The notes under the pieces were generated by a model. The model was not told the DNA's origin. It ran no database searches and saw only the letters and a list, made by a program, of their open reading frames with translations. Shown here piece after piece: positions 27,919 through 32,388 of a stretch of DNA of 34,871 nt; position 1 is the first letter of the stretch; each line of letters opens with the position of its first letter. Source of the DNA: Elusimicrobiota bacterium (lineage in GTDB: Bacteria; Elusimicrobiota; Elusimicrobia; Elusimicrobiales; UBA9959); assembly GCA_012517235.1 (NCBI GenBank), contig JAAYVI010000073.1, positions 1-34,871 of the forward strand. The letters run 5' to 3'. The position numbers and the translations under genes are program-made.

Positions 27919-27968
27919 TCTTTTGGCACTTGAGGGTTTGATATTAGTCAAGTAAAGTATCTTTGCAT

Positions 27969-28057
27969 CCTTGTAATCTCCGGAATCGGCCGGAGAGCAT
28001 CCACCTTCGGACCTTAATCCGAAGTCACCAAGGTAAGGCGGCTAAGGAAACCGGAGG
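27969..28057 (+). promoter_or_regulatory. Structured leader (candidate riboswitch or attenuator) of the MBL gene
   Basis: A three-way-junction-like fold is visible. The outer stem is CCTTG (27969-27973) with CAAGG (28029-28033). Hairpin 1 is TCTCCGG (27977-27983) with CCGGAGA (27990-27996). Hairpin 2 is CTTCGGA (28005-28011) with TCCGAAG (28018-28024). The ribosome site CCGGAGG (28051-28057) repeats the right arm of hairpin 1, so the left arm could pair with either. This would allow a switch between an open and a sequestered Shine-Dalgarno. I could not match it to any riboswitch class I know. Confidence 0.5.
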
Positions 28058-28062
28058 CGGAT

Positions 28063-29076
28063 ATGAATATTCCCTCGAAAGTAAAAAACCTTTTTTTGGC
28101 CTTATCTTTTCTTTATATAAACAATTCTTTTTCTCAAGGTAAAATTTTAGATTTTGACGGAAGCGGATTTTCATCTTTTTCTTTTTCAAATAATTTAAAA
28201 GAGACATCTTTGCCTGTTCCTTATTCTCCGTCTTATGAAAATGAAGATTCTTCTCAAACTCAAAGAGGAAGCTGCGAATTTCAAGTGTATTTCATAGACG
28301 TAGGACAAGGCGACGCGGAATTTATCCGTCTTCCTAACTGTAAAACGGTTTTAATAGACGGAGGTCCTTCGGCCTCTTCTTCTTCAAAGCTTTCAAAATT
28401 CTTAACCGAACATAAAATTACCTCCCTGGATTATGTGGTTCTTACTCATCCTCATACCGATCATTTCAGAGGTCTTCAATATGTTTTTGATAATCTTTCC
28501 GTATCTAATTTTTACGATACCAGGATAGATAATCCCGAATCTTCTACACTCCAAAAATTCAGGCAAACGGTTTTGTCCGAGCCGGGAATAAATATTTTTT
28601 ATCCTTTCGAAGGAGAAGAGTTTCAATGGGATTCTCAGGTAAAGGTAAAAGTTTTGCATTCTTGTCCGAATTATTCTCAAAGCAGTCAGGGGGAAATACT
28701 TAATAATTGTTCCATAGTAATGAAAATTTCTTATCAAAATGTTTCCTTGCTTTTTATGGGCGACGCCCAAGGGGAAACCGAAAGCTATATCGCCGATAAA
28801 TACGGTTCTCAGCTTCGTTCCGATGTTTTGAAAGTCGGACATCACGGTAGCCCTACGTCTTCTTCGGAAAAGTTTCTTTCTTACGTGTCTCCCAAACTTG
28901 CCTATGTGGAAGTAGGGAAAAACAGCTACGGCCATCCGTCCGACGCCACATTGAGCCGTATAGAATCTTTCGGAGCAAGGGTTTTTAGAAGCGATAGGGA
29001 CGGCACGTCTCTTTTTATTCCCGGAGACAAAATATTTTACTGTCAATACCCGCAGACTTCGGAAAATGGTAGGTAA
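28063..29076 (+). CDS. Secreted ComEC-type metallo-beta-lactamase-fold hydrolase
   Basis: 337 residues with a Sec signal (about 1-25, ending NSFSQG) and a Ser-rich linker. From about residue 75 it has the metallo-beta-lactamase fold of the ComEC C-terminal type: FIDVGQGDAEFIRLP, LIDGGPS, VLTHPHTDHFRG (the HxHxDH zinc site), LLFMGDAQGE, LKVGHHGS and YGHPSDATLSRI. The ComEC channel domains are absent, so this is a free-standing exported hydrolase. Nuclease or phosphodiesterase activity is known for relatives, but the substrate here is unknown. GGAGG lies 5 nt before the ATG, inside a structured leader. Confidence 0.9.
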   Translation: MNIPSKVKNLFLALSFLYINNSFSQGKILDFDGSGFSSFSFSNNLKETSLPVPYSPSYENEDSSQTQRGSCEFQVYFIDVGQGDAEFIRLPNCKTVLIDGGPSASSSSKLSKFLTEHKITSLDYVVLTHPHTDHFRGLQYVFDNLSVSNFYDTRIDNPESSTLQKFRQTVLSEPGINIFYPFEGEEFQWDSQVKVKVLHSCPNYSQSSQGEILNNCSIVMKISYQNVSLLFMGDAQGETESYIADKYGSQLRSDVLKVGHHGSPTSSSEKFLSYVSPKLAYVEVGKNSYGHPSDATLSRIESFGARVFRSDRDGTSLFIPGDKIFYCQYPQTSENGR

Positions 29077-29239: not shown

Positions 29240-30820
29240 ATGCTTTCAAAAATTAGATTTTTTCTTAAAAAAGAAGTCGATGCGGATTTGTTCTCTTTAT
29301 TTTATTCTTTATTTAATTTGATTTATAATATTCCTCTTTTTATATTTGCGGCTAAAAATTTGGATTTTCATTCTTACGGAGGATATGCTTCTTTCATAGG
29401 ACTTTTTTTAGCTCAGATATCTTTCGTATATATTTTTTTAACCGTATTTTCTTTTATTCCGTCTCTTCTTAAAATTATTTCGTCGATTTTATTTTTGTCT
29501 AATTCCGTAGCTTTATATTTCGTATGCGAATATAATGCCGTTTTGGATAAAACTATGATGGGAAATGTTTTCAATACTAATACCGGAGAGGCGGGGGAAT
29601 TGATAGGATATAAGTTTTTTATTTATATATTTTTTCTCGGAATAATCCCTTCATTATCGGTTCTCGCTTTAAATATCAAGAAAACTTCCGTAATAAGAAA
29701 AATTTATTTGCTGATCTCTATAGTATTGGCGATATCAGTTTTTGCTTATCTTAATTCCAAAACATGGCTTTGGTTTGACAAAAATTCTAAGAAAATAGGC
29801 GGTCTTACTATGCCCTTTTCTTATATCGGAAATACAATGAGATATTTTTCCGAGAAAGCGGCTTTGAATAAAGTTCCGGTAAAACTTCCGGACGCATCTT
29901 TTGAAAACAAAGATAAGACTACGGTTATTTTAGTAATAGGAGAATCGGCGAGATCTTCCAATTTCTCTCTATACGGATATCCGAGAATAACAAACGCTTA
30001 TTTAAAAAACGATTCGGTTGTGGCTTTGCCTAATGCTCGTTCTTTATCCACTTATACCACCGAATCGGTCGCTTTTATGCTTTCTCATTTGGGAAGCCAA
30101 AAAACTAAAATTTTTTACGAGCCGCTGCCTTCTTATCTGCAAAGACAAGGTATAAATGTCTTTTGGTTTAGCAATAATTGGGGAGAACCTAAACTTGACG
30201 TTTCTTATTATAAAAAAGCCTCTAAACTGAGAGAAGAATGCGGTGCCGCTTGCGGGAATCAAAATTATGACTCTCTAATGATTCGCGGTTTAAAAGAAGA
30301 GTTAAATAAAAATCAAAGTTCCGATAATTTTATGGTTTTTCATTTGACGGGCAGTCACGGCCCTTTATATTCTTCAAAATATCCCGCGGAATTCGAAGTT
30401 TTTAAGCCCGCTTGCAAATCGGTAGATTTGCAGAAATGTTCTTCTCAGGAACTTATTAACGCATATGATAATACCATACTTTATACGGATTATTTCCTCC
30501 ATGAGGTAATCTCTTTTCTCCGCTCTATCAAAAAAATGTCTTCCGTTATGATTTATATCTCGGATCACGGAGAATCTTTGGGAGAATACGGATTTTATCT
30601 GCACGGCGCTCCTTATTCAATGGCCCCCGATTTCCAAAAAAATATTCCGTTTATAGTATGGATGTCCGACGAGTTTAAAAAAAGAAGAAAAATTTCCGAT
30701 TCGGATTTTAAAGAAATAAAAAATCTTTCTCAAGATAATATTTTTCATTCGGTTATGGGCGCTTTTTTGATGAAAAGCCCGGTTTATGAAAAATCCAAAG
30801 ATATTTTCGCAAAAAGGTGA
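29240..30820 (+). CDS. EptA-like phosphoethanolamine transferase
   Basis: 526 residues. About five N-terminal membrane segments (within 15-172) are followed by an extracytoplasmic alkaline-phosphatase/sulfatase-fold domain. The metal and nucleophile region is VILVIGESARSSNFSLYGYP (E235) and STYTTESVAFML (Thr nucleophile within 271-276). HLTGSHGPLYSSKYP, then a Cys-bearing segment, and YISDHGESLGEYGFYLHGAP complete the family pattern. EptA-type enzymes move phosphoethanolamine from phosphatidylethanolamine to lipid A, lowering surface charge. The usual SVPC after the nucleophile is SVAF here, so one conserved Cys is lost. Its stop lies 6 nt before the PAP2 ATG, implying one operon. Confidence 0.88.
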   Translation: MLSKIRFFLKKEVDADLFSLFYSLFNLIYNIPLFIFAAKNLDFHSYGGYASFIGLFLAQISFVYIFLTVFSFIPSLLKIISSILFLSNSVALYFVCEYNAVLDKTMMGNVFNTNTGEAGELIGYKFFIYIFFLGIIPSLSVLALNIKKTSVIRKIYLLISIVLAISVFAYLNSKTWLWFDKNSKKIGGLTMPFSYIGNTMRYFSEKAALNKVPVKLPDASFENKDKTTVILVIGESARSSNFSLYGYPRITNAYLKNDSVVALPNARSLSTYTTESVAFMLSHLGSQKTKIFYEPLPSYLQRQGINVFWFSNNWGEPKLDVSYYKKASKLREECGAACGNQNYDSLMIRGLKEELNKNQSSDNFMVFHLTGSHGPLYSSKYPAEFEVFKPACKSVDLQKCSSQELINAYDNTILYTDYFLHEVISFLRSIKKMSSVMIYISDHGESLGEYGFYLHGAPYSMAPDFQKNIPFIVWMSDEFKKRRKISDSDFKEIKNLSQDNIFHSVMGAFLMKSPVYEKSKDIFAKR

Positions 30821-30825
30821 TTACT

Positions 30826-31416
30826 ATGATAAAAGATTTGTTTAAAAGAGCATGTACCGAAGTATGTTTGCCGAAGAAAATGCTTTATTGTTTTATCCCT
30901 ATTTGTATTATTATGATGTTTTATCCTTCCGATATGAAATATTATCAATCGAGAGAGAAAAATAAGGGGATTTTCGTATATTCGATAGAACATTACGTAA
31001 GATATGTAAATACCGCGGCTCAAGCTATTTTACCGATAGTTTACAGAGATCCTATCGGCATAGCTCAGGCTTGTATGGTCGGAGCTTCGACTACTATTGC
31101 GGTTCACTCTTTAAAAAGAATATTCGATAAAATAACTATTTTCGGAACCAGACTGGGGGAGAGGCCTTATAATAAAAACAGTTCTCATAATGTACCTTCC
31201 GGACATTGCGCGATGGCTTCTTCGGCAATGTATTTCGTATATAGAAGATACGGATGTAAGCATCTATATTATCTTTTGCCTATCACCGCTTTGACAATGT
31301 ATGCGAGATTCGCATTAAAAGCTCATACCGTTTCCGCCATAGCGTCGGGATGTTTGGTGGGAATAATAGCGGCGGCTTTCTTTACTTCCGAATATTTTTC
31401 AAAAAATAAGAAATAA
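30826..31416 (+). CDS. PAP2-family membrane phosphatase-like protein
   Basis: 196 residues from ATG 30826; a GTG at 30817 overlapping the upstream stop is the alternative, but AAGG is better placed for the ATG. PAP2 motifs: RLGERPYN (about 109-116), NVPSGHCAM (PSGH 124-127) and RFALKAHTVSA (R161, H167). The third motif normally continues to an Asp (HxxxD); here that position is Ala171, which may weaken catalysis. About five membrane segments. Following the EptA-like gene, it probably acts on lipid A phosphates or undecaprenyl pyrophosphate. Adjacency suggests that the pair remodels lipid A, which is inference. Confidence 0.82.
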   Translation: MIKDLFKRACTEVCLPKKMLYCFIPICIIMMFYPSDMKYYQSREKNKGIFVYSIEHYVRYVNTAAQAILPIVYRDPIGIAQACMVGASTTIAVHSLKRIFDKITIFGTRLGERPYNKNSSHNVPSGHCAMASSAMYFVYRRYGCKHLYYLLPITALTMYARFALKAHTVSAIASGCLVGIIAAAFFTSEYFSKNKK

Positions 31417-31457: not shown

Positions 31458-31952
31458 TTACTCTTTTCTTTTTGCCAGATGTCTGTCTATATACATAAGG
31501 CTTCCGCGCGATTCGCCTATCATTTTTAGCTGCTGGACTACCGCGTCTGTTTGCGCTTCTTCTTCTACCTGCTCGCTTACAAACCAATTTAGAAGCTGAA
31601 CGGCCGCATAGTCTTTCTCCGCCAAAGCTGCTTCCATCATTTTGTTTATTTCTTTGCTTACGGCTATTTCGTGATCCAATGCCGATTGAAAAACATCAAG
31701 AGCATTTTTATAATTCGCCGGAGGCTGCGGTACTTGGGAAACTTTAATATTTCCTCTCCTTTCTTTTAGATGATTATAGAATTTCAAGGCATGCTTTCTT
31801 TCTTCTTCGGCTTGAACTTCCATCCAGGAAGCAAAGCCCGGCAGATTTTGATTTTCAAACCATGCCGCCATCGCCATATACAAATGAGAGTTATAAAACT
31901 CCGCGTTCATTTGCTTGTTTAACATCTCTTCCATTTTTTTGTTAGGTATCAT
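31458..31952 (-). CDS. ftn: Bacterial non-haem ferritin
   Basis: 164 residues, FtnA size. Ferroxidase-site residues lie in NAEFYNSHLYMAMAAWFE, then EEERKHALKFYNHL and a later EVEEEAQ-like segment (SEQVEEEAQTDAVVQQL). It forms 24-mer cages that oxidise and store iron in the cytoplasm. Its ATG overlaps the stop of the Fur-family gene (ATGA), and AGGAGG lies inside the end of that gene, so the two are translationally coupled. This suggests iron- or peroxide-responsive control of storage. No haem-ligand pattern of bacterioferritin was noticed. Confidence 0.95.
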   Translation of the reverse strand: MIPNKKMEEMLNKQMNAEFYNSHLYMAMAAWFENQNLPGFASWMEVQAEEERKHALKFYNHLKERRGNIKVSQVPQPPANYKNALDVFQSALDHEIAVSKEINKMMEAALAEKDYAAVQLLNWFVSEQVEEEAQTDAVVQQLKMIGESRGSLMYIDRHLAKRKE

Positions 31953-32353
31953 TTTTCCTCCTTTAATTTTTTGCCTATTATAACCAAATAGTAATCTTCC
32001 GTTTCGAAACCGGGAATACTAATCTTTTCCGGGAGTTTTGCTTTATCCCAAGGGATATCGTATATTTTTCCGGAGATTTTGTCTACAAAGTGATGATGGG
32101 GGGATATTACCGGGTCATAAATAAATCTTCCGCTTTTTATGGCTCTCTTTTTGGCAAGACCTTTCTTGGCCAATAGTTCCAATGTGTTATATACCGTAGC
32201 TCTGGAAATATAAGAAAACTTTTTTTGTATTTTTAAAAGCAGATCTTCCGCGGAGGGATGGTCGAAGCTTTCAAAAAATATTTCGGCTACGGCCAATCTC
32301 GTCATAGTGGGTCTTATTTTTTTGCTTTTAAGGGCTTCGGCTATTTTGTTCAT
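31949..32353 (-). CDS. Fur/PerR-family transcriptional regulator lacking cysteines
   Basis: 134 residues from ATG 32353; an ATG 15 nt upstream lies inside the -10 region and is rejected. The HTH reads RPTMTRLAVAEIFF and SRATVYNTLELLAKKGL, and the metal region SPHHHFVDKISGKIYD. The protein has no Cys at all, so it lacks the structural CxxC zinc sites of typical Fur and PerR. Metal or peroxide sensing must rest on His/Asp ligands. It is coupled to ferritin and probably controls it with itself. Its promoter is consensus with a palindrome in the spacer, and the mRNA is predicted leaderless. Confidence 0.92.
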   Translation of the reverse strand: MNKIAEALKSKKIRPTMTRLAVAEIFFESFDHPSAEDLLLKIQKKFSYISRATVYNTLELLAKKGLAKKRAIKSGRFIYDPVISPHHHFVDKISGKIYDIPWDKAKLPEKISIPGFETEDYYLVIIGKKLKEEK

Positions 32354-32359
32354 ATTTTT

Positions 32360-32388
32360 ATTATACATCTAAATTTAGACATTGTCAA
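32360..32388 (-). promoter_or_regulatory. Promoter and operator of the fur-family/ferritin operon
   Basis: On the minus strand TTGACA, 17 bp and TATAAT are fully consensus. The ATG follows 6 nt after the -10, with no Shine-Dalgarno. The spacer holds a perfect 12-bp palindrome, TCTAAATTTAGA (32368-32379), the likely autoregulatory Fur-family site. Confidence 0.88.

Follow-up and report, generated by a model that had tools for sequence, protein, structure and literature searches.

A 2'-dG-II riboswitch predicted to switch on translation of a putative ComEC-type nuclease gene in Elusimicrobiota

Introduction

Four described systems are close to the locus analysed here: (i) the guanine and adenine riboswitches, including the translational adenine switch add; (ii) the 2'-dG-I riboswitch of Mesoplasma florum; (iii) the 2'-dG-II riboswitch class, RF03165 in Rfam; and (iv) the C-terminal metallo-beta-lactamase (MBL) nuclease domain of ComEC/Rec2. 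Canonical purine riboswitches usually switch by means of a P1 strand, and add is a translational ON switch. Compared with guanine riboswitches, the 2'-dG-II class is characterized by C51, which selects the nucleoside, by a G21-C79 pair, by an insertion in J3/1 whose U75 contacts A24, and by C78, which pairs with the ligand (PMC8872408). The 2'-dG-I riboswitch, on the other hand, has no J3/1 insertion, carries A-U at the end of P1 and has a shorter L3 (PMC8872408). Both the 2'-dG-II class and its association with ComEC are already published, and the downstream genes named for the class include ComEC and endonuclease I (PMC8872408). Regarding ComEC itself, the C-terminal domain of the Moorella protein is a Mn-dependent DNA nuclease (PMC8579336), and the fused domain has been gained and lost elsewhere (PMC6299819).

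The locus lies in a stretch of 34,871 nucleotides from an uncultured Elusimicrobiota bacterium, hereafter the window; all coordinates are positions in it, and both leader and gene are on the plus strand. Its leader resembles the RF03165 class in its full-length covariance match, its three-way junction and its pocket bases, but differs in that (i) it belongs to Elusimicrobiota, while PMC8872408 deals with Bacteroidetes; and (ii) the pocket strand doubles, at the MBL genes, as a predicted anti-Shine-Dalgarno strand. The scaffold is common to the guanine and adenine riboswitches, add included, but where these have U51 and A-U the window has C51, G21-C79 and a two-base insertion in J3/1. Going by class, the ligand is the one that 2'-dG-I recognizes. 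Finally, the protein encoded downstream matches positions 440-663 of TIGR00361 and the solved ComEC nuclease domains but, unlike ComEC/Rec2, it stands alone, is probably secreted and is not fused to a channel.

The leader and its class

The features of the leader are the following:

27966 to 28036, plus strand: 2'-dG-II riboswitch aptamer, RF03165 (cmscan 80.5 bits against a gathering score of 60, E 1.7e-19, model positions 1-71 of 71)
27969 to 27973, plus strand: 5' strand of P1, CCUUG, pairing with 28029-28033; G27973-C28029, next to the junction, is G21-C79 of the class
27977 to 27996, plus strand: P2, a perfect 7-bp hairpin with loop AAUCGG (read from the sequence; 7 of 7 pairs covary in relatives)
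27977 to 27983 and 27990 to 27996, plus strand: the P2 arms, TCTCCGG and CCGGAGA
27997 to 28005, plus strand: J2/3 ligand-pocket strand, GCAUCCACC; C28002 is C51
27999 to 28010, plus strand: predicted anti-Shine-Dalgarno strand, AUCCACCUUCGG, made of the pocket strand and the P3 5' arm; complement of 28051-28062
28005 to 28024, plus strand: P3, a hairpin of 7 bp counting C28005-G28024, with loop CCUUAA, whose CC is for the L2-L3 contact (read from the sequence; 6 of 6 model pairs covary)
28005 to 28011 and 28018 to 28024, plus strand: the P3 arms, CTTCGGA and TCCGAAG
28024 to 28028, plus strand: J3/1, GUCAC, containing the insertion specific to the class (U28025 is U75) and C28028 (C78); base roles from PMC8872408
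28029 to 28033, plus strand: 3' strand of P1, CAAGG
28051 to 28062, plus strand: ribosome binding site and flank, CCGGAGGCGGAU; Shine-Dalgarno (SD) sequence GGAGG at 28053-28057

Membership of the known 2'-dG-II purine riboswitch class is well supported by sequence comparison: in addition to the Rfam match, the aptamer scores 82.4 bits against model R1, and the Rfam search of the leader returned no match from any family outside the RF03165 clan. The original prediction had described a three-way junction with two perfect 7-bp hairpins ahead of the gene and a ribosome site, CCGGAGG (28051-28057, with the ATG at 28063), resembling the P2 3' arm CCGGAGA; all of this is present in the sequence. Its broad guess of a switch-like, cis-acting leader with translational logic agrees with the RF03165 match and with the conserved complement to the ribosome site presented below. 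By contrast, it had placed the leader outside the riboswitch classes known to it, naming an exact Rfam match as what would speak against it, and RF03165 is such a match: the core is that of the purine family, in its 2'-dG-II variant. As for the control by a protein that it offered as an alternative, no sign of this was found in the leader.

Shuffled sequence seldom folds as well as the leader (z -2.1; 3 of 200 shuffles do), and the stems of the leader are conserved as structure. Among 32 diverse Elusimicrobiota aptamers, changes on both sides occur at 19 of 21 pairs, including every pair of P2 (7/7) and P3 (6/6); cells with such changes number 134, versus 45 in shuffles, and 92% of cells remain paired despite the variation in P2 and P3. 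The covariation score is 0.594, as opposed to 0.228 in shuffles and 0.07-0.21 when the alignment is slid, and none of 500 shuffles reaches it. An origin as a dispersed repeat or from a phage was considered and rejected: there is no phage match, and the aptamers vary with compensatory changes.

Distribution and regulon

RF03165 was found over the cut-off in 52 of 59 genomes from the window's family and in 88 of 341 from the phylum; a single genome can carry as many as nine copies. A sample of 396 Bacteroidota genomes (the phylum of the Parafilimonas record L013) yielded 11 with RF03165 matches, one of them over the cut-off. Related records are from Elusimicrobiota; isolate bin104 (Elusimicrobiota bacterium, L006) is 70% identical over the MBL gene. 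The genome of the window has a second, weaker copy of RF03165 (L002) upstream of a secreted-looking protein, and on one contig of G033 two 2'-dG-II aptamers are separated by about 1.5 kb (L071).

Altogether, 185 sites were collected. Seven of them, sub-cut-off RF03165 matches in family f29 (L079, L081, L082, L084 and L090-L092), were rejected as ordinary guanine-type riboswitches, with a core of the GUAUAA...UUUCUAC...CUACGG type, leaving about 178-179; the counts on 173 leaders given here and below also exclude them. The largest downstream group is the MBL family of the window (28 of about 178-179 sites). When the best MBL homologues from 30 genomes of the family were inspected, the aptamer was upstream in 27, while none of the stored flanks shows an aptamer at the MBL genes of L007-L019, 13 loci that belong to other classes and phyla. 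A start resembling a signal peptide is present, by a simple composition test, in 139 of 173 downstream ORFs. In Bacteroidota, the genes behind the aptamer are an Endonuclease_1 gene and one with an Exo_endo_phos domain; hence, the MBL-family and Endonuclease_1 sites reproduce the association with ComEC and endonuclease I that is published.

Other groups were also observed: (i) the second largest, cluster 1, with 23 sites, is a mostly secreted-looking family of ~290 aa (L002, L004, L005, L078, L105, L133 and others), a scanned representative of which had no Pfam match; and (ii) twelve 2'-dG-II sites precede radical-SAM-type proteins (L027, L030, L045, L048, L054, L056, L057, L061, L065, L069, L102 and L104). 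In several of the latter, as well as at comparable sites such as L023, L024 and L064, a signal-bearing peptide of ~60-70 aa comes first, an arrangement resembling a RiPP-like peptide-modification operon under 2'-dG control.

The downstream gene and the split ComEC

The gene behind the leader is the following:

28063 to 29076, plus strand: ORF of 337 aa with a signal-like N-terminus, a ComEC-type MBL-fold nuclease domain (residues about 72-317) and HPHTDH at residue 129

The secreted MBL gene foreseen by the original prediction is borne out as an MBL-fold gene (PF00753, 58.2 bits) whose product is probably secreted, judging from its N-terminus. The part of TIGR00361 that it covers (positions 440-663) is the MBL part only, residues 72-317 match the ComEC nuclease domains of solved structure 9ic4 (E 1.1e-30), 30bt and 9vc6, and HPHTDH provides the metal motif of such domains. 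Unlike a ComEC/Rec2 protein, in which channel and MBL domain are joined, the window protein is MBL only, and the host ComEC channel (L220, 578 aa, matching TIGR00361 positions 70-427) has no MBL domain. The two halves of ComEC are therefore separate here, with the nuclease half behind the riboswitch. None of the 17 ComEC ORFs examined in the window's family has an MBL domain, while both of those examined in family f29 do. However, neither of the two ComEC ORFs examined in family f2, nearly devoid of the riboswitch, has the domain either, so the split is found outside the riboswitch carriers too. From these matches and the signal-like N-terminus, the product, a putative nuclease, is probably secreted and corresponds by itself to the C-terminal nuclease domain of ComEC.

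It is unlikely, by comparison, that the protein is another secreted phosphodiesterase, linked to DNA only by accident. Proteins of the MBL fold act on many substrates, and the more distant PDB matches are to the choline esterase CbpE, but the ComEC nuclease domains are by far the best matches in the PDB (110 bits versus 30) and in Bacteroidota Endonuclease I is under an aptamer of this class.

Beyond this gene, the window contains (i) at 29240-31416, a two-gene unit encoding a phosphoethanolamine-lipid A transferase (EptA, over the cut-off) and a PAP2 protein akin to the lipid A 1-phosphatase LpxE; and (ii) at 31458-32368, on the minus strand, adjoining ORFs that by eye suggest a ferritin and a regulator of the Fur family.

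Proposed switching at the MBL gene

In the mechanism proposed, J2/3 together with the P3 5' arm (27999-28010) would pair, when the ligand is absent, with 28051-28062, thus blocking initiation. Binding of 2'-deoxyguanosine would hold J2/3 and P3 in the three-way junction and free the ribosome site, the net effect being a translational ON switch: a product of DNA breakdown would induce a DNA-degrading enzyme, the probably secreted counterpart of the ComEC C-terminal nuclease. We consider it probable that a 2'-dG-II riboswitch switches on, through this J2/3-P3 anti-SD strand, the translation of a probably secreted ComEC-type nuclease. The ON direction is predicted because ligand binding and SD blocking would need the same strand. 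No promoter was recognized upstream of the leader.

The helix formed by AUCCACCUUCGG and CCGGAGGCGGAU has a single A.C mismatch in the window and a predicted energy of -16.5 kcal/mol; in many relatives, an GAGGTGGAT-ATG ribosome site gives an unbroken helix with J2/3 and the P3 5' arm. Only 1 of 300 shuffles offers an equally good complement in the window, 0-3 of 300 do so in 21 of the 28 MBL sites, and 8-10 of 300 in three more. In the 59 genomes, the pattern GAGGTGGATATG and its reversed control are of similar frequency (53 and 48 times); by cross-comparison, however, 28 of the 53 occurrences are directly behind a riboswitch, and one more immediately precedes an MBL gene where a contig ends. 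The J2/3-P3 complement is conserved without covarying, since the ligand constrains the bases on its aptamer side.

Folding predictions bear on the exposure of the ribosome site. With the RNA ending at the start codon, forcing the aptamer raises the mean predicted SD accessibility of 20 MBL leaders from 0.26 to 0.58. Adding 30 nt of coding sequence leaves little of this predicted gain: in the window, accessibility goes only from 0.29 to 0.31, since a local hairpin is also able to cover the SD; the start-codon hairpin may thus interfere with SD exposure in the window. This prediction, in which the SD stays paired with the aptamer forced, agrees either with an OFF switch or with a structured leader that is constitutive, where the ligand would leave the ribosome site unexposed, for instance under the start-codon hairpin. 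So does the position of the 2'-dG-I class upstream of a ribonucleotide reductase gene (PMC8872408), since repression is what one expects for a gene of biosynthesis. We regard such a design as quite unlikely at the MBL genes, considering that (i) the complement between pocket strand and SD is conserved; (ii) in 125 of 173 leaders of the regulon, versus 7 in shuffles, the 3' strand of P1 shares bases with a terminator, implying an ON switch at most of the other genes too; and (iii) the induction of a nuclease by a product of DNA breakdown makes sense.

Regarding the ligand, 2'-deoxyguanosine is inferred from class membership. The window carries every class determinant tested (C51, G21-C79, A24, U75 and C78), and the guanine riboswitch hallmarks, U51 and A-U at the junction end of P1, are replaced by C and G-C. 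Throughout 151 ungapped 71-nt sites, the pocket bases U22, C51, C78 and G21-C79 are kept in at least 95%: C51 (C28002) and C78 (C28028) are conserved at 149 and 150 sites, and G21-C79 (G27973-C28029) has G in 145 and C in 144. A24 and U75 (A27976 and U28025) are an A/U pair in 104 of the 151. Columns 23 and 24 (G) and 47 and 48 (C) of alignment A1, the GG and CC of the L2-L3 contact, are invariant. Variant aptamers with G for A24 and A for U75 were observed at 27 of the 151 sites, mostly in other families of the class (L161, L170, L186, L198 and others in families f14/f15); U75A by itself reportedly weakens binding (PMC8872408), which makes an altered specificity or a new contact conceivable. 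It is very unlikely that the same scaffold serves another natural ligand, be it guanosine or another guanine nucleoside: according to modelling work, 2'-dG-II also binds riboguanosine (PMC8872408), and related variants differ in specificity (PMC9295807), but the full set of determinants in the window, as well as the often DNA-acting nature of those downstream genes whose function is recognizable, argue for 2'-deoxyguanosine.

Finally, a role for the 5' arm of P2 (27977-27983) as the sequestering strand, as originally predicted, is highly improbable, because its pairing with the ribosome site, although possible in the window (a 7-bp complement, TCTCCGG/CCGGAGG, of -10.9 kcal/mol, with 9 of 300 shuffles as good) and similar to matches at L131 and L136, is at chance level in about 25 of the 28 MBL sites (the sister species L052 among them), would require the opening of a perfect 7-bp P2 that is just as strong (-11.3), and is not used in the minimum-energy fold of the leader, which is the blocked form, with P2 kept and J2/3-P3 turned against the ribosome site. 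It is J2/3 and the P3 5' arm that carry the conserved alternative pairing.

Significance

In the literature surveyed, which covers the genes and taxa of the class through PMC8872408, the expansion in Elusimicrobiota, the anti-SD role of the pocket strand and the control of a split ComEC appear undescribed, and so does an expression platform in which, as read from sequence, the ligand-binding strand of a purine riboswitch would act as anti-SD. As a tentative but quite possible generalization, 2'-deoxyguanosine may be, for much of Elusimicrobiota, the inducing signal that reports extracellular DNA, sensed by means of up to about nine riboswitches per genome located before mostly secreted proteins, the largest group being the split ComEC nuclease, where the ligand strand would be the anti-SD.

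The 2'-dG-II class is rare, and its biological purpose is poorly supported. With the aptamer before MBL nuclease genes in most genomes of the lineage, and with conserved platforms of predicted ON type, that purpose becomes a testable hypothesis, namely, that DNA breakdown products are sensed and DNA scavenging is induced. It would also provide a simple case in which ligand pocket and ribosome-site blocker are on one strand.
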